IMG/VR virus record: IMGVR_UViG_3300037852_000136
Coordinates: 1-64,000 of that record
Length of the DNA: 64,000 nucleotides
Source: a virus
Direction: 5' to 3' (one strand)
A program made the translations under genes and the position numbers. The notes below the pieces were generated by a model, which was not told the origin of the DNA, did not search any database, and worked only from the letters and a program-made list of their open reading frames with translations. Positions 1 to 64,000 of this stretch are shown piece after piece; within the stretch, counting starts at the first letter, position 1, and the number at the start of each line of letters is the position of its first letter.

Positions 1-2
1 GC

Positions 3-3000
3 AACATCGGCTACCCGATCACCGGCATCCGCCTCAACGTGACGACCTGGGCTTCCGGCACCGCGACCATGGGGGTGGCGCTATGGGGCGAAGTGCCGTT
101 GGCCCTCGCTCAATCCGGTCCGAACGGCGGCATCGCTAAGCTGAACAACGGGATCGCCGGAAAAAACGGTGGAATCTCAGGTTCTACCGCTGGCATCTCC
201 GGCCCTGGCGGGGGCATCTCCGGCCCTGGCGGTTCTGGCTGCGCAACTGGTACGAATATTGTTTATCTCACGACCGCGAATAACGGAACTCCATGGATAG
301 TTCCTCCGTGCGCTGCGGTTGCAACAACCTTGACAGTCGAGACAATCGGCGGCGGAGGTGCGGCAGGATGGGCACAGAGTGGCGTATCTTGGGGTAGTGG
401 AGGCTGTGGCGGGGCGTACAGTAGTATAACCGGGACCCCTACGGCGCTCTCGATAACGGCCGCTCAATCAATTACTTTTACCGTAGGCGCGGCCGGCGCA
501 ATTGGCGGCGCGCACAATACGGCTGGAGGAGCCGGTGGGGACACATGGTGGAACGGCGCCTCGTTAGCTGCTTCGTCTGTAGGATCGAAGGGGGGCGGTG
601 GTGGTCAAGTCGGGTTGCCGGCTGCTGCTTGCACGCAAGCCCTAGCGTCGGCTGGAATTGGTACAACAAAGTTTTCTGGCGGTATCGGCGGAAGCGGTAG
701 TACCACTGGCGCTGGTGCAGGGTCTGCGGGGCCTCATGGCGCCGGCCAAAATGGCGGCACCGGCAATGGCTCCAACAATTCAGGCGGTGGCGGCGGCGGA
801 AGTGATGGTGGCAGCGCTGGCGGCATAGTAACAAATGCGCAAACGACTACTCCTGGCGCGGTTGGCGGCAGTAATTTTGGTGGTCTTGGCGGTGGTTTTG
901 GTGGGGTCCGCAGCGCGACCCCTGGCGCGGGCCAAGCAGGCCAAAATGGCGGCGGTGGCGGCGGTGGTGGCGGCAATTCCGGCAGCGCTGTAGGTGGAGC
1001 GGGCGGCGCCGGAGGGCTTGGAGCAATCTGGGATGCAACGCATGGCCCCGGTGGTGGTGGCGGTACAGCAGGCGGACAAATAAGCGGCGCCACGGGTGCA
1101 AACGGTGGGGCCGGTGGACTTTATGGCGGCGCCGGAGGATCAAATGGTTCGGGTTCCTCGACTGACGGAACGCCGGGGGCAGGCAGTGCGGGAATTATCG
1201 TAATCACGTACACGAACGATCCGACGAGTGGATTTACCGTCGCGCTTACAGTCACAAATTCCGATGCGGTTGCATTCACATCGCAGCCAATTCCGATACG
1301 GATATCGTCGGCTGATATCAACTGGAGTCATGTCCGCGTCGATGGCGGCGATATTCGCATCACTGAGGCCGATGGCGTCACGGCGGTTCCTTATTATTTT
1401 CAGACTTGGGACTATGCTCATAGGCTGGCGGTGATATGGGCCAAGCCAGCTACTTTAGGGCCATCCGGCACCACGACGATCGATCTAAAATACGCCAATC
1501 CTTCCAATCTGGTAACAACGGCCAGCTATGATAACGTTTTTGCCAAGGTAAGCGCTTCTGTAAGTGGATTGCTCGCCCTTCATCACTTTGACGAAGGGAC
1601 GGGGACTACATCAGCGGACGCTCTTGGGACCTATCCGGTAACATTGATCGGGGCTCCGACATGGGGAGCTAGCGACGGAGGAAATTTCCGCGTTCAACTT
1701 CCGAGACAATCGTTTGTCTCTGGCTCAAGCATAACCCTTAATGGCACGAGCCAATACGCATCAATCCCAACCTTGTTGGACACTGAAGGCAACACGACGG
1801 TTTCTATATGGGTCAATCCGCCAGCCTTGAACTCAAATGGAGCAGTACTCTGGACAAAGGTTAACGCAGCCACTGATTTCATGACTGTTTCGTTCACTGC
1901 GGCCGGAACCCTATCGTATAATTTGACTGTTGGAGGTACCGCGCTGATTTCTGCGGCTGTGAATGGTCACGGAAGTCACGTACTTCCGCTTAACAAGTGG
2001 TCTCATGTGGCATTCACTTATGGCAGCGGAGGGTTTCGTGCCTACGTTGACGCTGAAGCTGATTTGAACCTTCCAGCGATTACAAGCGTGCCTGGTAATG
2101 GAACAACTGCATCGACGCGTATTGGCGCGAGCTCAGCGGCTGCAAATTTTGGCAATTTCACATTTGATGAACACGCGGTGTTCAGCCGTCAGCTTGCTGA
2201 TTGGGAGATCAAAGCCCTATTCGAGCGTCGCCCTGATACGCAAATCAAGGACGCATTTTCCAAGTTGTCGGTATCGTCAAAATTAATAACAAACAGCACT
2301 GACATTATCCTTGAACCAACGATTGTCGCCCTAACGCCTGGTTCGGTGTACCACGCATTTGTTCATGACGGCGGTACTAATTTTACGGTCAACCGTCTGG
2401 CACATTTTACCTCCACAAACGGCACGACATTCACCTTGGCATCTGCTGATGTTCTATCGGGGGCAACGGCATTATCTCCTACTATATGGTATGGAGGAAC
2501 TTACGGCAGCCCCGCCGACGGGCTGTTTCACATGCTGGTTAACAACACAAGTTACACAGCCCCCAGCAATTTGTCTCATTGGACATCGCCGGACGGCACG
2601 ACTTGGACCAATAATGGAACCATTCTAACGAGCGGAGGTCAGTTCACCGCCTACACGAATTCCGCCATATATTATCCCCCGAGTGGGGGTGTTGTTCTTT
2701 TAAACGAATACTGGAATGCTGCCATAGCGCAGTATGTCTCAGGAATGTGGACAGGAACATCACTGACCAGCCTATCGTTTGTTGGAAACACATCAGGCAT
2801 GGTCTACGGCGGAGGCCCTGATATTCACGCGCTTGGCAGCGGAAAGTATCTTGTCCTAAATCATGGTTCTTTGATTGGGGCGACAAACGGCATTCCGACA
2901 GTGGGTCACGCCTCGATCACGACAGATTTCCTTAATTACATCGATGCTGGAATAACGCCCCAGATACAGCTTTACGGTCCAACATTTGATCAAGGTGACC

Positions 3001-3194
3001 AAACTGCTGATCTTTTCGCAATAGAGAATTTCGACGGCGCAGGAACCTCTATTGTCTACTTCGCTGGATCTAACGACGGGTCAACAGGGGGAAATAGTGC
3101 CAGTGGATATACAATAAATGCCGGAATCTTTACCGGGACTCTCGCGCAGTTGTTTTCCGATAATCTATCTTCGACGTTTGGGACCGAGCACTGA
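3..3194 (+). CDS. Gly-rich tail fibre-like protein with LamG domain (5' partial)
   Basis: The frame is open to the left edge. The GTG at 39 only follows in-frame codons, so the true start is probably outside the window. From nt 210 to 1200 the protein is very rich in Gly, Ser and Ala, as in phage fibre shafts. From nt 1215 to 1540 it resembles a DUF2341-type beta domain. From about 1570 to 2210 it looks like a concanavalin/LamG fold (motifs LALHHFDEGTG and SITLNGTSQYASIP), which usually binds carbohydrate. The last 300 residues look like a repetitive beta structure, possibly a propeller. A role in host-surface recognition is inferred. The part after nt 1200 looks richer in A+T than the shaft, as expected of an exchanged host-range cassette. 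Confidence 0.75.
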   Translation, partial: NIGYPITGIRLNVTTWASGTATMGVALWGEVPLALAQSGPNGGIAKLNNGIAGKNGGISGSTAGISGPGGGISGPGGSGCATGTNIVYLTTANNGTPWIVPPCAAVATTLTVETIGGGGAAGWAQSGVSWGSGGCGGAYSSITGTPTALSITAAQSITFTVGAAGAIGGAHNTAGGAGGDTWWNGASLAASSVGSKGGGGGQVGLPAAACTQALASAGIGTTKFSGGIGGSGSTTGAGAGSAGPHGAGQNGGTGNGSNNSGGGGGGSDGGSAGGIVTNAQTTTPGAVGGSNFGGLGGGFGGVRSATPGAGQAGQNGGGGGGGGGNSGSAVGGAGGAGGLGAIWDATHGPGGGGGTAGGQISGATGANGGAGGLYGGAGGSNGSGSSTDGTPGAGSAGIIVITYTNDPTSGFTVALTVTNSDAVAFTSQPIPIRISSADINWSHVRVDGGDIRITEADGVTAVPYYFQTWDYAHRLAVIWAKPATLGPSGTTTIDLKYANPSNLVTTASYDNVFAKVSASVSGLLALHHFDEGTGTTSADALGTYPVTLIGAPTWGASDGGNFRVQLPRQSFVSGSSITLNGTSQYASIPTLLDTEGNTTVSIWVNPPALNSNGAVLWTKVNAATDFMTVSFTAAGTLSYNLTVGGTALISAAVNGHGSHVLPLNKWSHVAFTYGSGGFRAYVDAEADLNLPAITSVPGNGTTASTRIGASSAAANFGNFTFDEHAVFSRQLADWEIKALFERRPDTQIKDAFSKLSVSSKLITNSTDIILEPTIVALTPGSVYHAFVHDGGTNFTVNRLAHFTSTNGTTFTLASADVLSGATALSPTIWYGGTYGSPADGLFHMLVNNTSYTAPSNLSHWTSPDGTTWTNNGTILTSGGQFTAYTNSAIYYPPSGGVVLLNEYWNAAIAQYVSGMWTGTSLTSLSFVGNTSGMVYGGGPDIHALGSGKYLVLNHGSLIGATNGIPTVGHASITTDFLNYIDAGITPQIQLYGPTFDQGDQTADLFAIENFDGAGTSIVYFAGSNDGSTGGNSASGYTINAGIFTGTLAQLFSDNLSSTFGTEH

Positions 3195-3415
3195 TGACCC
3201 GCGTCATCCTCATAACTCTCTTGCTCTCATTTCCGGCCCAAGCAGCCGACAAGATGCTGATTCTCAACGATCAAGAGCAGGCGGCCCTGCGAGCCATTCT
3301 CGATACCGCGATCCACGCCCAAGGACTTACCGCCGTCAGCCGCAACGCCTTCGTGTTTTCCGACAAGCTGGATGCCGCCGGGCCGCCGCCACCTCCAAAG
3401 GAGCCTCCGCAATGA
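3194..3415 (+). CDS. Small exported protein in the fibre operon
   Basis: 73 residues. The N-terminus has a short positive start, a hydrophobic run (VILITLLLSFPAQA) and an AQA-AD cleavage-like site. The mature part is short, charged and ends in a proline-rich tail (PPPPPKEPP). The ATG overlaps the upstream stop by one base, and its own stop overlaps the next start as ATGA, so it is translationally coupled. I do not recognise the family. A periplasmic or membrane-associated product is inferred from the signal alone. Confidence 0.6.
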   Translation: MTRVILITLLLSFPAQAADKMLILNDQEQAALRAILDTAIHAQGLTAVSRNAFVFSDKLDAAGPPPPPKEPPQ

Positions 3416-4830
3416 AACGCCTCCTCGCCCCGCTCTTAGCGGGGTTCGCGCTCCTCATTCCGCTCTTACCGGCCCCACAAGCTGCCGCCGTTGAAGCGCA
3501 ACTATACTGCTACCAAGGGCCGACCAATCCGCAGTGGGCGCCTTGCAGTTCGACCAACCAGCTTCAGGTTAGCGCTTCGGTTTCGGCGTCAATCACCGGC
3601 TTCCCCGGCACGACGCAAACGACCGGCACCCCGATCGCGGTTACGACCGGCGGGGTTACCGGGACACTTCCGGCCGGCACCGTGGTGGTGGCTTCGAATG
3701 TGGGCGCTACCAACGGCGCGTACTGCAAGCTCGGCGCGTCTGCCACCACTTCGGACCAGCTGATCCCGCCCAATTCGTGGTTTGGCTTCACGGTCGGAAC
3801 CAACACCCAGCTTACTTGCATCACCTCGACCTCGACCACCACCGTGAACATGGTGGGCGGAGCCGGACTTCCGACCGGATCTGGTGGCGGGGGAGGCGGG
3901 TCGGGAGGAGGCGTCGTCACCCAGCCGACAGCCTCCTTGCTCAACGCCACCGTGGTGGGAACCGGGACGTTCCCTACCCAGCTCACCGGCGCGACCAACA
4001 ATATTAATAACATCGCCGGGACGATCTCGCTCCCAACGGGCGCAGCCACGTCGGCCCTGCAGACGACCGGCAATACGACGCTCACGACGATCAACACCAC
4101 GCTTGGCTCCCCGTTTCAGGCGGGTGGCAATATCGGTAATATCACGGGCACGATCACGCTCCCGACTGGGGCGGCGACTTCGGCCAATCAATCGACAGAA
4201 ATTACTTCGCTAGCCACGATTGCAACTAACACCGGCGCGGCTATTCCATCGCAGTCGCCGGCGGTTCCGATTGGCGGCATCGGTGTTTGCGATGGAGCGA
4301 ACGGAGCCACCAACCCGTGTACCACGGCGATGACGGTTAAAGCCGTTTCTACGGCTCCTGTAACAGCAACGGATAAAGCTGCGGTCACCGTGCTTCGACC
4401 GGATAGCCCTGGCATCATTACGCTTGGACCGGCAGCAGATACGAGCGCGGTGCCTGAGGTTCTTACACCGACTGCAAATTCAAACTCTACATTGAGCCAT
4501 GCCAGCACGACGGCGCTAGGGACATCTTTGGTCGCCAAGGCGTCAGCCGGCAATCTCTACGGTTTTAATTGCGCGGCAATTGCCGGCGCCAGTGGCGGTA
4601 ATTGCATCGCCTATAACGGCACAACGGTCCCAGGAACCGGAGCGTTGACTGGCGCAAACGTGCTCGACTTTTGCACGTTCGATACCGGCTCTAAAGGTTG
4701 TTCTCTCTCGCGTATCCCGCTCCCGGTTAACTATGGAACCGGCATTGTGATTCTGATCAGCAGTGCTGCATCTCCATACACCTACACGACCGGCACTGAC
4801 ACCGGAGCTATCAGCGTGGATTACAAGTGA
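3412..4830 (+). CDS. Exported Thr/Gly-rich structural-type protein
   Basis: The ATG at 3412 overlaps the preceding stop (ATGA). The longer frame upstream is a shadow. The product has 472 residues. It starts with a signal-like segment (KRLLAPLLAGFALLIPLLP) ending in AAAVEA, followed by low-complexity Thr/Ala/Gly sequence with recurring LPTGAATSA and TGTI motifs. A Gly-rich linker lies near nt 3885-3915. The C-terminal part (nt 4250-4830) resembles small beta-sandwich proteins found beside phage fibres. A perfect hairpin of the dispersed family (3428-3444) lies inside the signal-peptide codons. Function unknown; probably a fibre or surface accessory protein. Confidence 0.6.
   Translation: MKRLLAPLLAGFALLIPLLPAPQAAAVEAQLYCYQGPTNPQWAPCSSTNQLQVSASVSASITGFPGTTQTTGTPIAVTTGGVTGTLPAGTVVVASNVGATNGAYCKLGASATTSDQLIPPNSWFGFTVGTNTQLTCITSTSTTTVNMVGGAGLPTGSGGGGGGSGGGVVTQPTASLLNATVVGTGTFPTQLTGATNNINNIAGTISLPTGAATSALQTTGNTTLTTINTTLGSPFQAGGNIGNITGTITLPTGAATSANQSTEITSLATIATNTGAAIPSQSPAVPIGGIGVCDGANGATNPCTTAMTVKAVSTAPVTATDKAAVTVLRPDSPGIITLGPAADTSAVPEVLTPTANSNSTLSHASTTALGTSLVAKASAGNLYGFNCAAIAGASGGNCIAYNGTTVPGTGALTGANVLDFCTFDTGSKGCSLSRIPLPVNYGTGIVILISSAASPYTYTTGTDTGAISVDYK
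3428..3444. repeat. Dispersed hairpin, copy 1 (in gene)
   Basis: CCCCGC-TCTTA-GCGGGG, a perfect six-pair stem. In frame it encodes A-P-L-L-A-G inside a signal peptide. Confidence 0.7.
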
Positions 4831-5084
4831 TGCGCATCATCATAGCGTTTTTAACTGGCCTTTTGCTATCAGCCGCAGTGGCACAGAACGTCCAGTCGCC
4901 ATCAACAAGCAACACCGTGCCCAAGACAGTCGTAGGCAGCCTGCCGGTATGTGCGGCCGGAACTGAAGGGCTGATGTACGGCGTGACTGACGCTCTTACG
5001 CCGGTTGCTCTTTCTGCCGTGACTGGCGGCGGAGCCATCCACGCTCTTGTGTACTGCAATGGAACTTCCTGGATCGTCGGATGA
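4830..5084 (+). CDS. Small exported protein
   Basis: 84 residues starting at the ATG that overlaps the upstream stop by one base; a GTG one codon earlier is possible. The signal-like N-terminus (IIIAFLTGLLLSAAVA) is followed by a short region with GSLPVCAAGTEGLMYGVTD and a final CNGTSWIVG. This pattern is common in short phage proteins that sit beside fibres and resemble a single beta-rich receptor-side domain. The stop overlaps the next ATG (ATGA). Function unknown. Confidence 0.6.
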   Translation: MRIIIAFLTGLLLSAAVAQNVQSPSTSNTVPKTVVGSLPVCAAGTEGLMYGVTDALTPVALSAVTGGGAIHALVYCNGTSWIVG

Positions 5085-5965
5085 CCAAACGCATCGCCAC
5101 TTTCTTCCTGCTGCTTTATGCGGCTTTCTTTTGCTTTCAGCAGCAAGGGCGAAGCGCGGGGTGGTTGCCGCTTGCCGCGTCTCCAACGGGAGGGTGTTCG
5201 CAGGCGACGACATTTCTTGCTCGTACATCTGGTCTAAGCGGCACACAATCAACCGCCTATACGACTATGATCTGCGGTATGGTAACGGACGGCACCTACT
5301 GCGGAACAGTGCAGGATGGTTTTTATATTTTTGCCACTAATACGACAACGACAGCGAACCTTAATCTTTGCTCGACTAGCTTCGGTTTGACTGCGACTGG
5401 ATCACCAACTTTTACCGCAAACCAGGGATATACCGGAACAGGCGCGACAACCGACTATTTATCTACCGGCTTCGTTCCGAGGACAGCCGGCGGGAATATG
5501 GTCCTTAATTCAACTTCCTTATCTGTTTGTGTTTTTACCAGTCGAACGACTAACAATAACTATGTTGAGGTTGGAGTCGGCGGTTCCGGTGGTGATTTTA
5601 CTTATATAAAGCCTGAGGCTGGAAATTTCGAATCGGACATAAACAACGGAGCCTTTCCAACGGGCACAAACGCAAATGCGCAGGGTAATTGGATAATATC
5701 TAGAACCGGGTCAGCAAATTACGCAGTTTACAACAATGGCGTTGCGACATCATTTTCTCCGCGGACCTCTACTTCTGATCAATTGCCAGATGTCGCGGGA
5801 ATAGACATTCTTGTTTTGAATAATAATAATAGCATCCAATCGGCGACAGCAGATCAGCTTGGCGCTGTGTGGTTTGGTGCGGGAGTTGGTGCCACGCCAG
5901 CCGCAAATATCTCAACTCGTATTAGAGCCTATTTTGCGGCGGTGGGAGCACCAAGTGGTTGCTAG
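5081..5965 (+). CDS. Exported beta-rich protein, LamG-like
   Basis: 294 residues. The ATG overlaps the upstream stop (ATGA). The N-terminus is hydrophobic (RIATFFLLLYAAFFCF). The body is rich in Thr, Asn, Gly and aromatic residues, with DYLSTGFVPRTAGGN, SVCVFTSRTTNNNYVEVG and NNGVATSFSPRT. These resemble the alternating strands of concanavalin-like domains in phage fibres. The DNA looks richer in A+T than the replication genes. Function unknown; a carbohydrate-binding accessory is inferred. Confidence 0.6.
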   Translation: MTKRIATFFLLLYAAFFCFQQQGRSAGWLPLAASPTGGCSQATTFLARTSGLSGTQSTAYTTMICGMVTDGTYCGTVQDGFYIFATNTTTTANLNLCSTSFGLTATGSPTFTANQGYTGTGATTDYLSTGFVPRTAGGNMVLNSTSLSVCVFTSRTTNNNYVEVGVGGSGGDFTYIKPEAGNFESDINNGAFPTGTNANAQGNWIISRTGSANYAVYNNGVATSFSPRTSTSDQLPDVAGIDILVLNNNNSIQSATADQLGAVWFGAGVGATPAANISTRIRAYFAAVGAPSGC

Positions 5966-8900
5966 GATCGCGCTAGCTCTTTGGATTTTCTGTTCGCCCG
6001 CATTTGCATGGACGCACGGCTCGTCAACTGCGAACACGGCACCAATCGGCTTCGGCCTCGGCGGCCTGACGATCAACGTCGACCAGCCGTTCCTCAACCT
6101 GATGCACGCAGGACAGTATTGGGGCGCCACCAGCGGCTCGATCGCCATTACGGGCGTTGGGGCCGGCGCGGTCGATGCCGCTAGCGGCACCGGAAGCGTG
6201 ACGGGGACGGCGCTTACGATAACGACGGTTTCTACTGGCACGTATCGCAAGAACCAGACGGTGACCGGAACCGGCATCACGGGAAGTTCTGTCATCACCT
6301 CCGGCGGTGATTGCAGCCACGGCAATGAGCCGTGCTCATTTACGCTCAGCCAGTCTTCGTCAGCGACGGGCTCGATCGCTGTAGCCGGCAGCGGACATCT
6401 CGTCCGCATCAGCCTTGCATCCAACGCACCTGTTGTGGAAGCGACGGTCACGGCTTCGATCTCGACCGATCCCGAGCTGGGAAACCTCACGACCGCGACC
6501 GGAGTGACCGTCAGCGGCAACGTGATGACGGTGCCGAACACAAACATCATGGGCACGTTCGCGACCACGAGCGGGACCACTTGTGGCGCCAATGGCTGCA
6601 TCGTGACGGGCGCTGGGTTCCCGGCGAACACCGTGATCAACACGGACGGGTCGACTACCAACACCGCCTGCGGTGGAGTGCAGTGCACGGGCAACAGAGT
6701 TGATCGTAGCGGCACGTTCGCGCTCAACAACTCGTTCACGGTCGCCTCAGGTGTGACCGTCACGGCGTCCAACACATTGACGCCAGTATTGCATGTCACA
6801 GCCGTCAGCAGCGGGCACATTCAGCAGGGTGCCTACGTCTCCGCGCCGGCAACGAACGGCACAACGATCAATATTTCATACACGGCGCTGACCGGCACGA
6901 CTGGGAACTACAGCCTATGTGACGCTTTTACGTGCGGAACCCCGGCCGCCCAGACGCAATCCTCACAGACGTTCTTGATCAGCAGCATTCGCCCGAACGT
7001 ATCAGGCGTGACGGGGCCGACGGAGGCCAACGGCTGCGGCTCCATCATCCCGGTTAACGACGGCGCGAGCTTCGACTGTGTTGGACTTGATTATTCCGGC
7101 ACGACGTGGGGCGGCGCGGGGTCGATCTCGATCAGGTACGGCGAGTACAATTACGCTTTCAACCTCGATGCCAACGGCTATCCGCAATCGATGACCGGCA
7201 GCGGCATGGCCGCCGGCATCACTATGACGGAGTACGATCTAGGTAGTCTAAACCCATCAAGCGGGATCAACTCCAACGGCTACGACAACACGACGCAGAC
7301 GGGGCCGTTCTATTCGGCCGGAAATTATCTCGTCCAGTACACAGGAGGCAGCGGAGGATGCGGCGGGACCGTCACCTATGGTGGCGATGCGGCGTGCTCG
7401 TCTACCGTCAGTCAAGGCACCGATGTAATAAACGTCGCGACGGCAACTGGTAGCGGCATCAGCGTTCAGATCAACAACATCACCGGCGGCTACGTCCACG
7501 GCATGTCGATGGTTTACTGTGGGACATATTCCGCAACGGCTTATTTACCATCGCATTGCAGCACCGGCTACGACACGCTTCTGGCCAATGGGGAGAACTT
7601 CAACCCTGTCTTCGTCGCCAAGCTCAAGGCGGGCGGCACAACCCGTTTCATGGACTGGCTGCAGGCCAACAACACCGCGCAGGTTAATTTCACTCAGCGG
7701 CCGACGCTGACGCAGCTATTCTGGCACGGCATCTGGAGCGTTAATCAGACCGACCCGATGCCAAACGGCACGCCAATCGAGGCGATGATTCAGCTTGCAA
7801 ACGAAGCCGGTATGGACCCTTGGTTTAACATGCCGCTGCTGGCGACTGACGCTTACGTTACTTCGTTTGCCAACCTCGTGCACAGCAACTTGAACTCAAA
7901 TCTTCGTGCCTATGTCGAGTGGGACAATGAAATTTGGAACGTCTGTAACGGTGCGAACCCGACGTACCGTCCTGGACTAGCTACCTCGATCGCGGCATTT
8001 CCGAACGCCGCGAACGTGTGCGGCGGATTTCGGGAGTATTTTGAATCATTGCGCGCAACGCAGGCGCGCTCACTGTGGAAAACTGCATGGGGCGCGGATG
8101 CTAACCGCGTCTTCGGCGTCATGGCAGGGCAGGGCGGCGGCGACGGCATCTGTTCGTTTGGGCCACTGAATTGCGTGCTATTGCAGCTCGCGCCTGGGGC
8201 CGATGGAAGTAATATCGCGACGCAGTGGACCGCTTACGGACTGCGCACGGATAGCGGCTCCTCTACCTCGGCCTCGATCACCGGCACGGTGATGACGGCG
8301 GGCGGCACTACCAGTGGCTTCAAGGTCGGGCAGTTTCTTACCGGCAACAACGTCACATCTCCCACCACGATCGCCTTCGACGCTAACAACACAACTCCGA
8401 CTTCGTGTGGTGGGTCGCCATGCACGGGGAATACCGGCAACGGCACCTACGGGCTCACGGCGTCTTCGACCGCTTCGGCTACGAGCATAACAGGGGTAGC
8501 TGGAGCCTCAACCAACATCGACATATTCGCGGTTGGGAAGTACCTGCAGCCGTGCGGACCAGTCAGCAGCTACGACGGCTTTACGAACGATCAGTATTTT
8601 ACTCAGATGAACACCGGCGGCCTTGGATGCACCGGTGGATCGCTTGCGACGACGGTGGCCGAGGGGCAGCTTGACTACAATACGGTTCACGCCTTTGGCC
8701 TTCCGATTGTCGCTTATGAAATCGGGCAGCAGTTTATCGCTGGTGGCGACACGTCAGCCGCACAGGTGTTCGCCAACGGCACGCGCGACGCTCGCATGGG
8801 GACGACATTTCAAAGCCTGTTCGGTCAGCTTAAGAGCATTGGCTTTGACGTGATGAATTACTACGTGCTGACGGGCCAAGCCACGCACTTCGGGGACTTC

Positions 8901-9026
8901 ATCGGGCTCGAGAACATCAACCAGACGACTACGCCGACTTATGGTGGGATTTTGACTTTTAATGCCGCGAATCCATGCTGGTGGGGATCGCAGGCGCCGT
9001 GGGCGAGCGCGGGAGGATGTCGGTAA
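5955..9026 (+). CDS. Large exported protein with glycosidase-like domain
   Basis: The likely start is the GTG at 5955, which gives a hydrophobic N-terminus (VARIALALWIFCSPAFAW); the frame upstream of it is out-of-frame overlap with the previous gene. The product has 1023 residues. Residues 70-330 and again about 770-850 contain repeated beta modules with CGG-x-PCTGN and GTY/GTFAL motifs, a repeat type known in phage fibres. Residues about 550-760 and 880-1020 look like a (beta/alpha)8 glycosidase. E659 lies in EWDNEIWN (acid/base-like NE) and E922 in AYEIGQQ (nucleophile-like), as in clan A hydrolases. The catalytic domain appears split by a repeat module. A polysaccharide-degrading role is inferred. 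Confidence 0.65.
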   Translation: MVARIALALWIFCSPAFAWTHGSSTANTAPIGFGLGGLTINVDQPFLNLMHAGQYWGATSGSIAITGVGAGAVDAASGTGSVTGTALTITTVSTGTYRKNQTVTGTGITGSSVITSGGDCSHGNEPCSFTLSQSSSATGSIAVAGSGHLVRISLASNAPVVEATVTASISTDPELGNLTTATGVTVSGNVMTVPNTNIMGTFATTSGTTCGANGCIVTGAGFPANTVINTDGSTTNTACGGVQCTGNRVDRSGTFALNNSFTVASGVTVTASNTLTPVLHVTAVSSGHIQQGAYVSAPATNGTTINISYTALTGTTGNYSLCDAFTCGTPAAQTQSSQTFLISSIRPNVSGVTGPTEANGCGSIIPVNDGASFDCVGLDYSGTTWGGAGSISIRYGEYNYAFNLDANGYPQSMTGSGMAAGITMTEYDLGSLNPSSGINSNGYDNTTQTGPFYSAGNYLVQYTGGSGGCGGTVTYGGDAACSSTVSQGTDVINVATATGSGISVQINNITGGYVHGMSMVYCGTYSATAYLPSHCSTGYDTLLANGENFNPVFVAKLKAGGTTRFMDWLQANNTAQVNFTQRPTLTQLFWHGIWSVNQTDPMPNGTPIEAMIQLANEAGMDPWFNMPLLATDAYVTSFANLVHSNLNSNLRAYVEWDNEIWNVCNGANPTYRPGLATSIAAFPNAANVCGGFREYFESLRATQARSLWKTAWGADANRVFGVMAGQGGGDGICSFGPLNCVLLQLAPGADGSNIATQWTAYGLRTDSGSSTSASITGTVMTAGGTTSGFKVGQFLTGNNVTSPTTIAFDANNTTPTSCGGSPCTGNTGNGTYGLTASSTASATSITGVAGASTNIDIFAVGKYLQPCGPVSSYDGFTNDQYFTQMNTGGLGCTGGSLATTVAEGQLDYNTVHAFGLPIVAYEIGQQFIAGGDTSAAQVFANGTRDARMGTTFQSLFGQLKSIGFDVMNYYVLTGQATHFGDFIGLENINQTTTPTYGGILTFNAANPCWWGSQAPWASAGGCR

Positions 9027-9515
9027 ATGGGTGCGGTACTTCAAAGCGGTGCAGCAACTCCCGGCCACGCGGCCAAGTGGGTGACCGATGGCGTGATCGC
9101 GGATGCTGGCGGTATGCCGGCCGCCCAGCGTGTCCTCGCGAGCTTGCGCGGTGCCAATTTCAACACCACGAACGATCAGCCGATCGCCATCCCGCTCAAC
9201 TTTACGGCGTTCCAGCTCAACTCGATCATCATCACGAACGCCTCCATTAGCCTGACGGCCGCCGTGGGAGGGTTCTACCCGCTGGCTGCTAAGGCGGGAA
9301 CCCCGATTGTGGCGGCTTCGCAGGCGTATTCAGCACTTACCGGCATAAACTCGCTAATGACCGCCACGCTGGCAGCATTCGGTTCCGGCACCCGGTTCTC
9401 GTCAGCCAATCTCGGTAGCATCGGGGGGCTATTGGCAGTGTGGTTTTCATTAACGACCCCGCAGGGCGTTGCTGCGACTGCAGATATATACCTCATCGGT
9501 ACGGACCTCTCATGA
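9027..9515 (+). CDS. Small fibre-associated protein
   Basis: 162 residues. The ATG follows the upstream TAA directly. The first 30 residues (LQSGAATPGHAAKWVTDGVI) match the motif after the signal peptide of the next gene (QQSGNVTPGHVPVWITNGVV), so the two share an N-terminal module seen in phage fibre proteins. The rest, with SISLTAAVGGFYPLAAKAGT and a YSALTG motif, is beta-rich. It has no signal peptide, unlike its neighbours. It may be a fibre cap or adaptor. The stop overlaps the next ATG. Confidence 0.6.
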   Translation: MGAVLQSGAATPGHAAKWVTDGVIADAGGMPAAQRVLASLRGANFNTTNDQPIAIPLNFTAFQLNSIIITNASISLTAAVGGFYPLAAKAGTPIVAASQAYSALTGINSLMTATLAAFGSGTRFSSANLGSIGGLLAVWFSLTTPQGVAATADIYLIGTDLS

Positions 9516-11539
9516 AAAAAGTTATTGTCCTTGTTCTGCTGCTTTATCCCGCGGTCGCGGGAGGGCAGCCGGTGCAGCAAAGCGGAAATGTCACGCCTGG
9601 ACACGTCCCCGTTTGGATCACCAATGGTGTTGTGGGTGACGGGGGCACAGCTGCGCAAGGCGCGCTGTCTAGCCTCGGCATCACGGCTTCGGGTCCAAGC
9701 TTCTGCATCAACAGCGACCTTACGTCCGCCGCCGGCTGGCAGCAGTTTTGTTTTGGCGTAACGACCGCGGGCGGTGGTACGATCAGCGTTAAAAATTTCG
9801 GGACAGCTCCTGCCGAGCCGCTAAATATCACCGTTAACGGAACAAACTACAATTTCCCATTCGTAGCTTCAGGAATTATCGGACCAAATAGTACGACAGT
9901 AGGTGATTTGGCACTATGGAATAATACCTCCGGCACGCTACTAAAAGACGCCGCCATGTCGGGCGATGTCACGATGAACGGCAGCGGCGTCACTTCTCTT
10001 GCTTCTGTCGTGACCGCGGGTGGCCCCACCGGCTCCGCTACGACCACGCCCATCATCACGTATGACGCTAAGGGGCGCCTCACTTTAGTGTCGGTGGCCA
10101 CGATCGCACCGCCGTGGTCTGCGATCACTGGGACGCCGACAACTCTGGCAGGCTATGGAATCACTTCTCCGCTGCCATATGCACAGGGCGGGTGCAACGC
10201 CACCACGCAAGCTGGATGCACCAACAACCTGTTTCCGACTCCCACTCGTGCTGGTGATATACCTTACTGGAACGGAACGACGTGGTTGTCGGTCGCGGGA
10301 AATAACAGCGGCAACGCCTGCCTGCAAGAAACTTCAGTCGGCGCCCCGAGCTGGACCCCGTGCAACTTCACGGCCGGTGCCACCATCTACAACGTGGTTG
10401 CGGCCTACGGAGCCAAGAGGAACTATCTGGTTCTTCTAGACGGAGCAATGTCCGGCGCGTCAACGACGCTGACCAGTGCTTCTGCGCATTTTGCCAGTGG
10501 GGATGTCGGTAAGTACATTGCGGTTGCAGGAGCGGGAGCCGGCGGTATTACGCTCTATACAACCATCGCTACTTTCGTAAACTTGACAACGATCACGCTT
10601 ACCAGCGGGAATATTTCTGGCGGAGCCATTTCCGGCAAGATCGTAGAGTACGGCAACGATGATGCCCCTGAGTTTCAAACCGCGTGGAATGCGTGCGTGA
10701 CAGGAGGCGGCGGCACTGTTTATGTTCCGGTCGGGTCCTACTTTGTTTCGCAGTTGAATATGGCTAACACGCAAGTTTCTTGTGTCCTTAAGGGTGAAGG
10801 GCCGCAATCAACCAGAATATTCCCACTTGAAATTGGCGCTTACGGAACGGCGAACGGTCACGTTTTCGATATGACGGGATCGGCGTTCATCGGGCTGACC
10901 AACTTCCAGTTCGGTGCCTACTACACGCTCGCAGTGCCAACCACCGGCATAGCGATGATGCAAGTTGCAAGCAACGTGTCAAATCGCATGTCGATAAATC
11001 ATGTCTATTTCAGCGGGCAATATTCCGGCACGACGTTTTACGATTACGGAGTGCCGTCGCTCTATACGATTTCCGACTCCGACTTTTACAACTACTTTCC
11101 GGGAGCCGGTACTCACAATGCTTTATACCTCACGAGCACCAATATATTGAGCTACACATCATCTTTTGCAACCGTCACTAGTGGCACGATTTCGACTTCT
11201 GACATTCTGTTTTCTGGCGATGAATTTCATAAATTCGCGGGTACTGGGGCGGATAATTCGGTGGTCCTTCTTGACGGTGTTGGAAACGTCCATTTTCTGA
11301 GCGGGGTCATATCCGGTGGAGCGACTACATATGTCTGGCTCAACGGTACGAACGGCACCCTTGGGTTCCTCAACGTGACGATGGAAACGGAGGGCCAGCC
11401 AGTCGAGCCGACGTATGAATACTACAGTAACTCAGCTACGTGGTCTCAATTGTCAGACCCGCTTACGACTGCTATCGTTACGACCTCGAAATACAACGTA
11501 GCTGTTACGACCAATACGGAGACCTTTTCCAACCACTAA
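9512..11539 (+). CDS. Tailspike-like protein with pectin-lyase fold
   Basis: The ATG at 9512 overlaps the previous stop (ATGA) and gives a 675-residue product with a signal-like start (KKVIVLVLLLYPAVAGG). Then comes the shared QSG-TPGH module, a Gly/Thr-rich region, and from about residue 385 a sequence typical of the pectate-lyase/SGNH-like beta-helix of tailspikes: DDAPEFQTAWNAC, GGTVYVPVGSYFVS and LKGEGPQSTRIFP. Such spikes trimerise and cleave or bind surface polysaccharide. The AT-richer 3' half suggests exchange with other phages. A dispersed hairpin (9548-9561) lies in the signal-peptide codons. Confidence 0.7.
   Translation: MKKVIVLVLLLYPAVAGGQPVQQSGNVTPGHVPVWITNGVVGDGGTAAQGALSSLGITASGPSFCINSDLTSAAGWQQFCFGVTTAGGGTISVKNFGTAPAEPLNITVNGTNYNFPFVASGIIGPNSTTVGDLALWNNTSGTLLKDAAMSGDVTMNGSGVTSLASVVTAGGPTGSATTTPIITYDAKGRLTLVSVATIAPPWSAITGTPTTLAGYGITSPLPYAQGGCNATTQAGCTNNLFPTPTRAGDIPYWNGTTWLSVAGNNSGNACLQETSVGAPSWTPCNFTAGATIYNVVAAYGAKRNYLVLLDGAMSGASTTLTSASAHFASGDVGKYIAVAGAGAGGITLYTTIATFVNLTTITLTSGNISGGAISGKIVEYGNDDAPEFQTAWNACVTGGGGTVYVPVGSYFVSQLNMANTQVSCVLKGEGPQSTRIFPLEIGAYGTANGHVFDMTGSAFIGLTNFQFGAYYTLAVPTTGIAMMQVASNVSNRMSINHVYFSGQYSGTTFYDYGVPSLYTISDSDFYNYFPGAGTHNALYLTSTNILSYTSSFATVTSGTISTSDILFSGDEFHKFAGTGADNSVVLLDGVGNVHFLSGVISGGATTYVWLNGTNGTLGFLNVTMETEGQPVEPTYEYYSNSATWSQLSDPLTTAIVTTSKYNVAVTTNTETFSNH
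9548..9561. repeat. Dispersed hairpin, copy 2 (in gene)
   Basis: CCCGC-GGTC-GCGGG; in frame it encodes P-A-V-A-G. It is identical in sequence to the copy at 24232. Confidence 0.7.
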
Positions 11540-11585
11540 AACTGCCAGTTGCGGCGGTAAAGAAACAGGCGTAAAGTCCCCGCCC

Positions 11586-11948
11586 ATGCGGCTCCCGCTC
11601 GCCATAGCTTTGTGCCTGTTGCCCAGCCTAGGGATAGCGCGGGACAACGGCCAATGGGGCAGCCAAACCAGCGTGCGCGAATGGTTCCAGGGCTTGCAGC
11701 AGCCGGACAATCCGCGCGTCTCGTGCTGCGGTGAAGCTGACGCGTTCGAGGCCGACACGTTCGAGGTTGAAGGCGACCACTACGTCGCGATAATCACGGA
11801 CGGCAGGGGCGTTATCGCGAACGGCACTCGCATCAATGTTCCGAACTACAAGATGAAGTACGACAGCGGCAACCCAACCGGCCACGGCATCATATTTCTC
11901 GACACCAAAATGTTGGTGTTCTGCTACGTCGCACCCGGAGGAGCTTAA
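11586..11948 (+). CDS. Exported Cys-Cys protein of the Rhizobiales type
   Basis: 120 residues with a signal-like start (RLPLAIALCLLPSLGIA). The mature part has SCCGEADAFEADTFEVEG, then ANGTRINVPNYKMKYD, then NPTGHGIIFL and a final FCYVAPGG. I associate this pattern with a conserved protein of unknown function in Bradyrhizobium genomes and their prophages. It lies directly upstream of the endolysin, so a cell-envelope role during lysis is possible but unproven. A 46-nt gap separates it from the tailspike gene. Confidence 0.65.
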   Translation: MRLPLAIALCLLPSLGIARDNGQWGSQTSVREWFQGLQQPDNPRVSCCGEADAFEADTFEVEGDHYVAIITDGRGVIANGTRINVPNYKMKYDSGNPTGHGIIFLDTKMLVFCYVAPGGA

Positions 11949-11951
11949 ATC

Positions 11952-12581
11952 ATGCCCAACAAACCCGTCGTCATCGATATCTATCACGGCGATCCGGTCG
12001 AGGATTTCCAGGCCGTCAAGGACTTCGGCATCGTCGGCGTGATCCACAAGGCGAGCGAGGGGCTGAACGACACTGACCCTCTCTACGATGTTCGCCGCCA
12101 GGCCTTCACCGCCATCGGCATGAAGTGGGGCGCATACCACTTCATGCACGACGGTAACGGTGCCGCGCAGGCAGATCACTTTCTTGAGGTCGCGAAGCCT
12201 GACGATGATACGCTGCTCGCCTGCGATTGGGAGAACAATTCCAGCGGTGGCGGCTATCCGTCCGTGCAAACCGTCAAGGATTTTTGCCAACGCATAAACG
12301 ACAAGCTCGGGCGCTGGCCGGTCCTCTACTCCGGAAACGTCGCCAAGGAGGCCCTCAAGGGCAAGGACCCATTTTTCGCAAACCTGCGGCTTTGGCTGTG
12401 TCAGTACGGTGCCAAGTGGAAGGTGCAAACGAGCTGGACGACGCCATGGCTGTGGCAGCAGAACGGGGATGACTTCGGTCCCGGCCCGCACCAGATCCCC
12501 GGCATCAAGGGCAACTGCGACAACAACTGCTTGGTCGACCCGATGACGGTGGATGATCTCCTTGCGGAGTGGGCGACATGA
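11952..12581 (+). CDS. Endolysin, GH25-type muramidase
   Basis: 209 residues, about the length of a single GH25 domain. VVIDIYHGD near the start supplies the first acidic position, KASEGLNDTDP follows the lysozyme strand pattern, WGAYHFMHDG is the family's YHF strand, and LACDWEN carries the expected Asp-x-Glu catalytic pair. WPVLYSGN and LWLCQYG complete the barrel. It would cut the peptidoglycan glycan chain at lysis. No signal peptide is present, so it should need a holin. RBS-like GGAGGAG lies before the ATG. Its stop overlaps the next ATG. Confidence 0.9.
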   Translation: MPNKPVVIDIYHGDPVEDFQAVKDFGIVGVIHKASEGLNDTDPLYDVRRQAFTAIGMKWGAYHFMHDGNGAAQADHFLEVAKPDDDTLLACDWENNSSGGGYPSVQTVKDFCQRINDKLGRWPVLYSGNVAKEALKGKDPFFANLRLWLCQYGAKWKVQTSWTTPWLWQQNGDDFGPGPHQIPGIKGNCDNNCLVDPMTVDDLLAEWAT

Positions 12582-59851: not shown

Positions 59852-61429
59852 ATGGCTGGTTTGCAGGGTGAGACGATCACGGGCGTCGAGGTGGACGGGG
59901 TGCCGACCTCTGGGCCGCCGATCGGTGGGGGAGACAATATCGCGGCGCCCGACAAGGTGACCTCGGGGCTTGCCGATATCCAGCAGCAAGGAAACACCGC
60001 CAAGGAGGGGTTGTACGGCAACATCGCTCACATGGCGAACGAGGATGCGTTTCGCGCGCATCACGCCTATGACGCCGAAGCTGCTACTGCGCACGACATT
60101 CCGACGTGGAACGAGGAGGAGCAGAAACAGAAGTTTGCCACCGACCCGGTGAGGGCGTTCGGCTCCGTGGGCAGCGTGTTCGCCATGATCGCCGCGGCTT
60201 TCACGCATCGCCCTATGATCAACGCCCTGCAAGGCTCGGCCGCCGCCATGGACGCCATCAAGGCGGGCGACGATAAAGCCTACGACCAAGCATTCACCGC
60301 CTATAAGACCAATGCGGACCTCGCCATTAAGCGTCACCAGATGATGCACGAGGAGTATCAGGATGCGCTGTCCTTGATGCACACCGACATGGCGGTTGGG
60401 GAAGCCCAGCTCAAGATGGCGGCCATGAAGTACGACGACAAGCAGATGCTGTTTCTGACCGAAAACGGTCTCAGCGATCTGCGCGACAAGCTCATCACGG
60501 GACGTGCCAAGGCGCTCGAATCGACCGTGGAGGCGAACAACAAGATTGACGCGTTGTCACTGCGCCGTCAGACATTCGACAGCATGAAGGCGGACGTAGA
60601 GAAGTCCGGTATCCCGAAGGACGATCCGCGCTATGCCGCCCTCATGGCGGAAGCTGGACGCCGGGCGTTCGCCGGTAAGGAAACCCCCATCGATCCGCAG
60701 ATGTGGCAGTGGGAGATGCAGCACGCGCAGGATCATGATGGCAAGGGGCCGACCGCCGAGGAGCGGCAGAAGTTTTACCAGGGCTTTCGGCTGACGGGCG
60801 CTGGTGTGGCAGGTGGCGCTGGCTCGAATCTTACCAAGGCGGTAGGCGCTTTGGAGGAGGATATCTACAAAGACAATATCGCGGCCGGGATGCCGGAGAC
60901 TGCCGCGCGTGCGGACGCGATCAAGCGGGCCAAGGAGGCGAACGCGCCACCCATCACCGGCAACGAGCGCGAGAAGCTTGAAGCGCATCTCGGGCAGTTC
61001 ACCGAGGCCGACACCCTGATCGATCGAGTCACCAGTACGCTCGATCGATACGTCGGGGCGGCGGGCGTCGCCGGCAAGGCGACCCGCATGGGCGAGCGGC
61101 TGAGCAACCTTGCGGGCGGCAAGGAAACCGATCGGGTGCAGTTGATGCGCGACATCAGCGAGTTGCAACTGATGGCTCCGCGCCTCTTGCTCGACGCTTC
61201 CGGCCGTCCGCTTGCCGCGGAGGCGGGTCACGTCAATGATGTGATTGCCGGGTTGAGCGCGGGCGATACCACTGCCAACACGCTACGCTCCATGAAGGAG
61301 ATCAAGGAGCAACTGGCGCGCATGAAGCAGCGGCAGGAGCAGCGTTTGGGAGAGACACCAAAATCTACTCCTGCTGCACCAGCTAAGCCGAAGGCTGCCC
61401 CGTGGGCGAACGATCCTGAAGTGCAATGA
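59852..61429 (+). CDS. Internal virion/ejection protein
   Basis: 525 residues, largely helical. AFGSVGSVFAMIAAAFTHRP is a hydrophobic segment; KRHQMMHEEYQDALSLMHTD and YDDKQMLFLTENGLSDLRDK are long helices. The end is a Pro/Ala/Lys tail. Position and composition fit a DNA-ejection protein that helps form the channel through the envelope. Coupled to the next gene by ATGA. Confidence 0.7.
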   Translation: MAGLQGETITGVEVDGVPTSGPPIGGGDNIAAPDKVTSGLADIQQQGNTAKEGLYGNIAHMANEDAFRAHHAYDAEAATAHDIPTWNEEEQKQKFATDPVRAFGSVGSVFAMIAAAFTHRPMINALQGSAAAMDAIKAGDDKAYDQAFTAYKTNADLAIKRHQMMHEEYQDALSLMHTDMAVGEAQLKMAAMKYDDKQMLFLTENGLSDLRDKLITGRAKALESTVEANNKIDALSLRRQTFDSMKADVEKSGIPKDDPRYAALMAEAGRRAFAGKETPIDPQMWQWEMQHAQDHDGKGPTAEERQKFYQGFRLTGAGVAGGAGSNLTKAVGALEEDIYKDNIAAGMPETAARADAIKRAKEANAPPITGNEREKLEAHLGQFTEADTLIDRVTSTLDRYVGAAGVAGKATRMGERLSNLAGGKETDRVQLMRDISELQLMAPRLLLDASGRPLAAEAGHVNDVIAGLSAGDTTANTLRSMKEIKEQLARMKQRQEQRLGETPKSTPAAPAKPKAAPWANDPEVQ

Positions 61430-64000
61430 CTGACACCAACACCATTGATCCCAAAGGCACCGATGCGTACTTCGGCCCGGTCACGCGCCGCGGGGCGGAA
61501 GCTGCCGACGCGCTTCCTGATAAGCCGCCAACTAAGATCGCGGGCGAGGACGATTACGCTGCGCTCAAGCCTGGCACCACGTTTGTGGATCCCGACGGCA
61601 AGACCCGCAAGAAGGCGTACGCGGTCACAGACGACGCCAGCTACGAGGCGGTGCCGGAGGGTGAGCACTACACCGACCCCGAGGGAAAGACGCGCCAGAA
61701 GCCCAAATATGAGGGCATCGATGTCACGGCGCAGACCCTTTACGATATGTCGATCAACGACAAGGAGCGGCAGAAGGCGCTTGAGCGCTCCTACCCCGGC
61801 AAGGTCAAGAAAAAGGGTGACGACTTCTACGTGGAGGACGAAGGCGGCGTGCTGCGCAAGCCAGGCCGCGGGCCATCGGCTGTAGGCGGTTTCATAGCCT
61901 CTCAGGTAGCTCCTGTAGGAGGGGCGATCGGCGGCTCGATCGGCGGTGCTGCGGTCGGTAGCGTGGCTCCCGGCCCCGGCACGGTCGCGGGGGGTATCGC
62001 GGGCGCGGCAGGCGGATCGGCCCTAGGTCAAGGCTTCAACGACGCCATCCTTCAGCTCGCGGGCGTCTACGACCGGTCAGGCAGCGAGGAAGCCGCGAAC
62101 CTGGGCGAAGCAGCCGCCTTCGGGGCCGTCGGCGAGGGCGCGGGACGCGCTATTGCGGGTGCGGCGCCGTTCATCAAAGGGAAGATAGCAAACACTCTTC
62201 CGGCTGCTGCCGCCAAGTTCCTGGGTGCTGATCCTGCCGGGTTGGAGCAGGCGATCGGTTTGAGCGAGAAGGGCGTCCTGGTGCCCCCATCAGGCTGGGC
62301 CAAAGAAGCGCCGCATATTCAGAACGTCGTAGAGGTGTTCGACCCGGCCTTCCACACTCAGAAGCCGCTGCTGCAGTCGGCGACCGAGCACTACGAGGAG
62401 AGCGCCACCAACATCGCAGAGAGCGTGGGCGCCAAGCCGGCCGGTAAATTCAGCGATCCACAGGCGGCGGTGTCGACCGAGAAGGCGGGTGAATCCATTC
62501 TGGGGCGTACCCGCGAGGAGTCGCGCATTGCGGACGAAAATTTGCGCAGGGCTCTGGAGTTGCGCAGAGGTGCAGCATCGGCTGATCTTGCTTCGAAGGA
62601 GGTAGCGGCTGGATCCCACATGGAGGCGCTCAAGCGCGCAGAGGTCGAAAGTCGCAAGGCCGCTGAAGCCGTGATCGACGAAGGCTTCAAGCACATTCAG
62701 GGCGATATCGACACCGCCATGAAGGTTGCGAAGGCAGGCGGCAATAGCGGCGACCTCTGGTGGAACGTGGGCGAGAAGCTCAAGGCGGTGAAGCAGGGCA
62801 TAGCGGCGCGGGCGTCCAAGATGTACGGCGAGGCGGATGCGCTGGCGGGCGATCATTTACCTAATGTTGAGGGGTTATCGGAATCCGCTGCCGATTTTCT
62901 TGCGCAATTGCCTGAAGGGTTTGAAGGGCGATACCCTTCGATCGTTAAGCAACTTCGCGATTTGGCGGGGGTGGAGAAACCACCACAACCTCCGAAGCCC
63001 ATAGTTCAAGATAATCAACCGCGTCCTCCCACAGTGCCAAAATATGATCAGGCTGTGCAGGATCAGTGGTTCGAAAATGAATTGCGTACCAATTTCGGAA
63101 CAAGTAGCAAAGCACTGGACGCTCAATCGAAATTGAGAGGGACTTCTCCAGATCAAATGCTTGATAGGTTGGCGCAACGACTTCAATTGGAAGCAGAAGC
63201 TGCGCGATGGTTAAAACCGCCAGTCAAGCCGACGTTCGGGCAGTTGCATGAGATGCGCTCGATCATTCGTCAGAACATCAACTATCACGACCTCACCCCC
63301 GGCATCCGGGAAGGCGTCTATAAGTTCTTTGCCAAGAAGGTGGATGAGATACTGCACGATCCCGAGGCGGTGCCAGCCCTGAAGGACGCATCTCAGGCGT
63401 TGAAGTTGGCTGACGCCTTCTATCGCGAAAATATGCGCCCCCTGACCGACAAGAATATTCAGGCGGTGGTGAGTGGGCTGGAGTCGGGGTTGCCGGCCGA
63501 TCCCAAGAACCTGTTTGACACCTTGGTGAAGGAAGGTCGATCGGACTTGACCAACAAGGTAAAAACATTGGTAGGTCCGAATTTGTGGGCTGGCGTGAAG
63601 GCGGCCGACACGCAGGAAATGCTGGATCAGGCCAAGACCCTGGTGCCGGGCCAGATCGATGGCAAGCGTTTCGCCCGGCAGGTGGTAGATCGGGTGCGTT
63701 CCGGGATGCTGGAGGCTGTGCACGGCAAGGAGGCATCCGCCAAGCTATTGGAGCAGGCGCAACGTGTCGCCATGCTGGACGGCAAGCTCGACATTTCGGC
63801 TCGCCCTGGTGACACCATTACGACCATCATCGGCAAGGCAAGAGCTGCCAAGGAGGCGGCTCAAGCGGCTGCCAAGGCGGATCCCCTCAAAACCTTGAGC
63901 AAGGAGATGCAAGGTATCGAGCGGGAATTTGCCGCCGAACGAAAAAAACTGCAAGCGATACGCAGTAACGATCCGCTGGCGTTCCTCTACAAACCGACAA
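61426..64000 (+). CDS. Large internal virion protein (3' partial)
   Basis: At least 858 codons, open to the right edge. The start overlaps the previous stop (ATGA). An acidic and basic N-terminus (GTTFVDPDGKTRKKAYAVTD) leads to a long Gly/Ala hydrophobic stretch (VGGAIGGSIGGAAVGSVAPG) that could insert in membranes, then long helices (ASKEVAAGSHMEALKRAEVE). This is the usual form of the large ejection protein of podophages. Between 62860 and 63230 the DNA is visibly richer in A+T and encodes a Pro/Gln-rich linker, perhaps a recombined segment. Confidence 0.7.
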   Translation, partial: MTDTNTIDPKGTDAYFGPVTRRGAEAADALPDKPPTKIAGEDDYAALKPGTTFVDPDGKTRKKAYAVTDDASYEAVPEGEHYTDPEGKTRQKPKYEGIDVTAQTLYDMSINDKERQKALERSYPGKVKKKGDDFYVEDEGGVLRKPGRGPSAVGGFIASQVAPVGGAIGGSIGGAAVGSVAPGPGTVAGGIAGAAGGSALGQGFNDAILQLAGVYDRSGSEEAANLGEAAAFGAVGEGAGRAIAGAAPFIKGKIANTLPAAAAKFLGADPAGLEQAIGLSEKGVLVPPSGWAKEAPHIQNVVEVFDPAFHTQKPLLQSATEHYEESATNIAESVGAKPAGKFSDPQAAVSTEKAGESILGRTREESRIADENLRRALELRRGAASADLASKEVAAGSHMEALKRAEVESRKAAEAVIDEGFKHIQGDIDTAMKVAKAGGNSGDLWWNVGEKLKAVKQGIAARASKMYGEADALAGDHLPNVEGLSESAADFLAQLPEGFEGRYPSIVKQLRDLAGVEKPPQPPKPIVQDNQPRPPTVPKYDQAVQDQWFENELRTNFGTSSKALDAQSKLRGTSPDQMLDRLAQRLQLEAEAARWLKPPVKPTFGQLHEMRSIIRQNINYHDLTPGIREGVYKFFAKKVDEILHDPEAVPALKDASQALKLADAFYRENMRPLTDKNIQAVVSGLESGLPADPKNLFDTLVKEGRSDLTNKVKTLVGPNLWAGVKAADTQEMLDQAKTLVPGQIDGKRFARQVVDRVRSGMLEAVHGKEASAKLLEQAQRVAMLDGKLDISARPGDTITTIIGKARAAKEAAQAAAKADPLKTLSKEMQGIEREFAAERKKLQAIRSNDPLAFLYKPT

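Follow-up and report, generated by a model that had tools for sequence, protein, structure and literature searches.

Gene organization of the exported block

The viral record IMGVR_UViG_3300037852_000136 from IMG/VR (65,664 bp) represents an uncultured phage; its bases 1-64,000 were analysed and are referred to as the window. Between the genes for a giant virion protein and an endolysin, this phage carries a late block of genes, most of which encode proteins with predicted N-terminal signal sequences. Several of these proteins resemble tail fibres. According to the evidence given below, most fibre-like proteins of this uncultured soil phage family almost certainly fold outside the cytoplasm, i.e. 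apart from the site of particle assembly.

The gene order is terminase (position 44267, the first of the head and neck genes), major capsid protein (50803), SU10-type adaptor (54290), probable nozzle (55605), giant protein, exported block, and GH25 endolysin. The giant protein contains no Cys, is encoded at 61426-64000 on the plus strand and on to record position 64593, and lies directly upstream of the block. It served as the landmark for aligning relatives. The endolysin gene (11952-12581, plus strand; Pfam GH25, 1.7e-26; PHROG 291 endolysin, 1.7e-25) encodes a protein without a signal (score -16.6 bits); it is the start of the lysis genes and the end of the exported block. A chromosomally integrated copy of the phage was not found.

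The record is terminally redundant: bases 65390-65488 match bases 1-99, and bases 65539-65664 match bases 100-225. Compared to record 65390-65664, the copy of this overlap in window 1-225 lacks 50 bp. The deletion removes most of the signal of a LamG protein and the upstream stop codon, which leads to an in-frame fusion with an upstream signal-bearing gene. The LamG open reading frame (ORF) at position 39 therefore appears to be signal-less. The deletion is either a real variant or an assembly error. The exported block runs on across the record junction, where two more signal-bearing genes start at 65095 and 65472.

Signal sequences were scored in bits with our own log-odds model for the general secretion (Sec) pathway and signal peptidase I, which considers the n-, h- and c-regions and the cleavage site and is distinct from SignalP. 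The gene at record 65095-65490 opens with the signal MRFVAAFLLGLVLLTAGPALAQ (23.5 bits). The LamG protein, whose true start is record position 65472, extends across the junction to window position 3194 and opens with MGRSAVNWRAWVASGLIALCASLALAQ (18 bits). Its ORF in the window (39-3194, plus strand) codes for a glycine-rich, fibre-like protein with DUF2341 and LamG domains (Pfam LamG_3, 5e-18; DUF2341, 1.5e-12), and the mature part contains four Cys. The genes that follow are all located on the plus strand. The small 73-aa ORF at 3194-3415 has the signal MTRVILITLLLSFPAQA with the predicted cut before an Ala (17.7 bits) and a mature part of 56 aa without Cys. Since none of the fetched loci contains a relative, this gene is the least certain one of the block. 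The predicted exported fibre-like protein encoded at 3412-4830 (27.7 bits) has 10 Cys in the mature part; its N-terminal ~150 aa are conserved, and N-terminal matches in relatives are 56-78% identical. The gene at 4827-5084 codes for a small protein with the signal MMRIIIAFLTGLLLSAAVA, predicted cut before a Gln (17.8 bits), and two Cys, with relatives of up to 82% identity. The protein encoded at 5081-5965 (14.0 bits; PHROG 18498, 6.6e-8) has relatives of 30-44% identity and contains seven Cys with the signal and six once it is removed.

A product of 1023 aa is encoded at 5955-9026 (16.6 bits) and retains 24 Cys after signal removal. It consists in part of tail-type beta repeats, whose hairpin loops contain C-x4-C or similar pairs, e.g. 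GGDCSHGNEPCSFTLSQ and TTPTSCGGSPCTGNTGNG, as if disulphides were added to a common phage repeat. The adjacent gene at 9027-9515 codes for a conserved 162-aa protein without signal and without Cys. The main fibre of the block (9512-11539) carries the signal MKKVIVLVLLLYPAVA, predicted cut before a Gly (20.0 bits), matches PHROG 32881 (1.6e-20), and contains eight Cys. Finally, 11586-11948 codes for a small, predicted exported protein (17.1 bits) with a mature part of 102 aa and three Cys. No relatives of the latter were detected in the fetched loci, and a search of 190 genomes of the class was likewise negative.

A first-pass annotation had described seven signal-bearing genes in this region, several of them with fibre or tailspike features. 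All seven starts are present as plus-strand ORFs; the set is larger, due to 65095 and 65472, and is interrupted by the signal-less 9027-9515. It had also proposed surface proteins of infected or lysogenic cells; the genes belong to the late block, and an integrated copy is lacking, as stated above. Its domain assignments are supported in part: the LamG reading is borne out (together with DUF2341) by the 39-3194 protein, and the pectin-lyase fold by the PHROG 32881 match of 9512. The proposed glycosidase-like domain goes back to a reading by eye of the C-terminal half of the 5955 protein, for which no family match was obtained.

Signal sequences of the block and of related phages

The scorer was calibrated with 46 annotated E. 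coli K-12 genes from one 50-kb region. Secreted proteins reached 7.6-21.7 bits, cytoplasmic proteins at most 2.1 bits, and inner-membrane proteins at most 7.7 bits. The seven starts, which the earlier reading had proposed for a check with a signal predictor, all score as cleavable Sec signals with 14-28 bits and display the n-, h- and c-regions followed by an A-x-A cleavage site. Outside the exported block and the lysis region, no ORF of the window reaches 10 bits. A lipid anchor, which had been considered as an alternative, was rejected: none of the nine scored signal-bearing starts (65095, 65472, 3194, 3412, 4827, 5081, 5955, 9512, and 11586) contains a lipobox.

The same arrangement recurs in 18 relatives; the capsid protein was used to find them and the giant protein to align them. 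The genes following the giant protein are also signal-bearing and differ strongly in their mature parts, whereas the head and neck genes are without signals. If ORFs shorter than 200 aa are set aside, the fibre modules of these relatives contain 91 ORFs, 50 of which score at least 10 bits; in the vicinity of the major capsid gene, 9 of 505 ORFs from 79 loci do so. Fibre genes account for several of these nine, and many of the 41 module ORFs below 10 bits are lysis genes, are read in wrong frames or from wrong starts, or lie beyond the module.

In relatives, the candidate start with the highest score was taken for each gene, and the scorer is home-made. Both facts could favour the idea that chance hydrophobic stretches or wrong start codons in GC-rich ORFs have been mistaken for signals. 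However, the same rule was applied to the controls and yields the low frequency given above for head and neck genes, the calibration is clean, and the Cys content, to which we turn below, speaks for itself separately from the signal call. Chance hydrophobicity was rejected by the comparison of module and capsid-region ORFs, and an artefact is the least probable of all explanations considered here.

In two relatives, module proteins open with twin-arginine-like signals (L099, 3038-6514, MKHLSRRDFVHAG; L094, 2727-4514, MISRRRLLISAA). This suggests that the twin-arginine route is perhaps also used in these phages, as would be expected if it is export as such that counts.

Cysteine content of the mature proteins

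A protein that is folded by means of disulphides is expected to contain an even number of Cys. An even count was determined for 40 of 42 non-redundant mature proteins, which were picked by signal score alone, and for 127 of the 269 structural proteins that these phages contributed as controls (p = 4e-10). Fibre proteins share ancestry, and sequence-level p-values such as this one therefore exaggerate independence; a fair picture is given by the results per cluster and by the trees. By homology cluster, the even counts are 15 of 17 versus 22.3 of 44 structural clusters (p = 0.001). Even numbers are also found in 32 of 32 proteins bearing the motif of the main fibre that is described in the next section. 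In the window, the mature parts contain 10, 2, 6, 24, 8, and 4 Cys; the 11586 product with three Cys is an exception. This parity evidence does not depend on the signal call.

In eight proteins, the signal itself contains an odd number of Cys. All eight have an even count in the mature form, and none of the eight in the precursor form. The count becomes even only without the signal, which is indirect evidence that the signal is cleaved off. Tail fibres are generally attached via their N-termini, and one might thus interpret the hydrophobic starts as uncleaved segments by which the fibres are held in the virion or form trimers. This explanation is very improbable in the light of the eight precursors, the retained cleavage motif, the twin-arginine-like signals of two relatives, and the correlation of Cys pairs with signals that is shown below. 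A membrane anchor in the virion was likewise rejected.

The N-terminal domain of the main fibre and its neighbour

The mature 9512 protein opens with the motif QSGNVTPGH..W..NGV..DGG, which is followed by a domain of ~125 residues. Within this family, identity is 34-59% over the first 125 residues and ~6-16% thereafter; the C-terminal part is variable and pectin-lyase-like. Cys 49 and Cys 64 (fragment numbering, alignment A2) are nearly invariant in the N-terminal domain. The motif occurs in 51 viral loci, most of which are signal-bearing, with the predicted cut within a few residues of QSG-VTPGH. The signal sequences themselves differ, although the cleavage position near the motif is kept. 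In an AlphaFold (AF2) model of the monomer, the N-terminal ~130 residues are beta-rich and predicted with fair confidence. The family thus combines a conserved N-terminal domain with a variable distal part, as is typical of tail fibres, and the gene is placed in the region of the neck genes, with the giant protein on one side and the endolysin on the other.

The signal-less protein encoded at 9027-9515 shares the QSG-TPGH-W-DGG opening with mature 9512. It is 42-76% identical in relatives (alignment A4) and is encoded directly upstream of the 9512-type gene in most of them. Its AF2 model (pLDDT 77) is all-beta; the best fold match in the PDB is the Bd2133 fibre tip of Bdellovibrio, which is weak (E 0.04), and viral matches are weak and to unnamed phage proteins alone. 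Due to the common motif, the lack of Cys, and the position upstream of the 9512-type gene, the 9027 product may be a cytoplasmic partner of the exported fibre. Searches of PDB sequences with profiles of the 9512 family (A1) and of the 9027 family (A4) gave chance-level matches or none, and those with the 5955 and 9512 sequences gave nothing.

Loss and gain of signal and cysteine pair

Sister phages, whose major capsid protein is 66-76% identical to that of the window, allow for a direct comparison. In four of them (L136, L141, L145, and L165), homologues of the 9512 domain without signal are encoded at the same locus, and in signal-less relatives the domain begins at residue 3-7 of the protein. 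Both Cys are replaced in every signal-less homologue, as illustrated by GLYGNGGTPFGIV of L165 versus GLYGNGGTPLCIT of the signal-bearing L129. Of 36 signal-bearing proteins, 33 possess the Cys pair, whereas none of the 13 signal-less ones does. According to a reading of the alignment by eye, two of the three signal-bearing proteins without the pair are also without the domain.

In a tree that was calculated without the Cys columns, signal and Cys pair agree in 41 of 41 rows. Four changes are required, at least three of which are on well-supported branches, and the three independent pairs all point in the same direction. At least three changes are likewise required by the backbone tree of their capsid proteins; it is therefore close relatives that have switched, and export of fibre-like proteins was gained or lost repeatedly. 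In L122 (9938-13409), the genes for an exported fibre and a signal-less paralogue are direct neighbours, flanked by adaptor and nozzle homologues. L139 has a signal-less fibre between the adaptor and nozzle genes, and the fibre genes of the distant relatives MW202753 and MW202825 are without signal. Taken together, conservation of the signals in relatives, even Cys counts, and Cys pairs that track the signal make the export proposed in the first-pass annotation well supported at the level of sequence.

Distribution beyond the clade and possible host

The habit is not restricted to one clade. In the unrelated myophage-like record L003 (5351-11849), whose baseplate J and I genes were recognised by eye, an ordinary signal-less fibre is followed by four signal-bearing proteins with even Cys counts (4, 6, 14, and 2). 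Judged from its sequence, exporting is therefore a habit that goes beyond one phage clade. A homologue of the 5955 protein with a signal of its own is also present in this record. The search of phage isolates for relatives of 5081, 5955, and the 9512 N-terminus, and that of plasmids for the latter, gave none. The major capsid protein matches just two uncultured records with ~32% identity.

The capsid gene has a match of 70% identity in one bacterial metagenome-assembled genome (MAG), Acetobacteraceae bog_899, on a contig that is all phage-like; this contig is a weak pointer to the host. The motif domain was found in 1 of 249 genomes of the family and in 1 of 385 genomes of the class that were sampled, in both cases on the same phage-like contig of this MAG. 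These frequencies are also relevant to the idea that the block consists of host-derived secreted proteins (morons) that merely resemble fibres. The 11586 product resembles a small secreted bacterial protein, and many bacterial proteins have LamG or pectin-lyase folds. Nevertheless, with a motif domain nearly absent from the sampled genomes and a module common to many relatives of one phage clade, an origin as morons is highly unlikely.

Proposed route of the fibres to the virion

Assembly of tailed double-stranded DNA phages is taught as a cytoplasmic process. From the sequence features described above, we consider it somewhat more probable than all alternatives combined, with a probability of about 0.55, that tail-fibre-type proteins are exported, disulphide-bonded in the periplasm, and probably join the virions at lysis. 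In this scheme, the block would comprise modular tail-fibre or receptor-binding genes, whose products would be secreted by the host Sec machinery in late infection. Signal peptidase I would cut the N-terminal signal from each precursor, and the mature protein would fold in the oxidising periplasm with all Cys in disulphides. The conserved ~125-residue N-terminal domain of the mature protein would be the docking part, and the variable remainder would bind a receptor or glycan. The downstream lysis genes would then open the cell and release particles and fibres together. We infer the docking to the virion, its timing and its site: the two partners would meet for the first time and only at lysis, because particles are built in the cytoplasm, and docking would occur at the neck (adaptor/nozzle) through the conserved domain. 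For the more specific version, namely that receptor-binding fibres are completed outside the cytoplasm and added at lysis and that relatives switch the route via signal and Cys pair, the chances are roughly even.

Several observations weigh against this scheme. Export parts the proteins from cytoplasmic assembly. In L003, the exported proteins may be extra to the virion's own signal-less fibre. The 4827 and 11586 products are too small for fibres, and the latter has an odd Cys count in its mature part. The AF2 model of 9512 is poor beyond residue ~130, and a fold search with it gave no match. Three independent pairs on the tree are too few for significance alone, and the searches of phage isolates yielded no cultured relative.

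The same evidence for export and Cys pairing is also compatible with disulphide-bonded proteins that never enter the particle and instead clear host polysaccharide, block superinfection, or coat the infected cell. The glycosidase-like 5955 and the pectin-lyase-like 9512 would suit such a secreted factor. This explanation is kept alive by the ordinary signal-less fibre of L003 and by the phage of L087, in which three signal-less fibre-like proteins are encoded beside one exported protein. In contrast, a constant N-terminal domain with a hypervariable remainder is the architecture of a fibre. Moreover, signal-less versions of this domain are encoded at the corresponding locus of sister phages and within the adaptor-nozzle block, and no other fibre candidate was recognised among the head and neck genes of the window. 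A purely secreted function is thus a serious, albeit less probable, possibility. A function in the virion after lysis is favoured by the architecture, by the signal-less sister homologues, and by the one exported copy that is located in the connector block.

If fibres are indeed attached after export, phages could produce the proteins that determine host range in a compartment other than the cytoplasm and add them after lysis. The fibres would gain access to disulphides suited to harsh soil, and they could be exchanged between neighbouring infected cells. The switch of signal and Cys pair between close relatives makes the question testable, and the L122 paralogues are a ready test pair. For annotators, this is a warning not to dismiss signal-bearing fibre-like genes of viral contigs as host genes called in error.

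Comparison with known systems

The search of the literature, which was confined to open-access papers, subscription journals being outside its scope, yielded no description of tail fibres with signal peptides. The block resembles the ordinary fibres and tailspikes of short-tailed phages in gene position, in the constant N-terminus with a variable distal part, and in the LamG and pectin-lyase folds. In contrast to the predicted route described here, ordinary fibres lack a signal and are both produced and assembled in the cytoplasm, as in MW202753, MW202825, L136, L141, L145, and L165.

A known precedent for late phage proteins that use Sec are the signal-bearing endolysins, i.e. Lys44 of fOg44 and the SAR endolysins of P1 and 21, which are exported by the host Sec machinery before lysis (PMC6116005). 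These are lysis enzymes, whereas the GH25 endolysin of the phage studied here is without signal. Several genes of Porphyromonas gingivalis phages are likewise predicted to be exported (PMC10367356). In the passages considered, they are described as capsid proteins, for which cleavage by the prohead protease is probable, as spanins, and as unknowns; neither a fibre block nor evidence for disulphides is mentioned there.

The nearest system in the open-access literature is the family of mosaic adhesive trimer (MAT) fibres of Bdellovibrio bacteriovorus, which are phage-fibre-like and possess a signal, a conserved beta-rich domain of ~130 aa, and an adhesive tip (PMC10769870). Mature 9512 similarly has a conserved beta-rich domain of ~125 aa followed by a variable part; the likeness is one of architecture, and the A1 and A4 profiles matched no MAT chain among PDB sequences. 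Disulphides are not mentioned for MATs (PMC10769870). Furthermore, MATs act on the surface of the predatory bacterium, whereas the genes described here are phage genes located beside neck and lysis genes.

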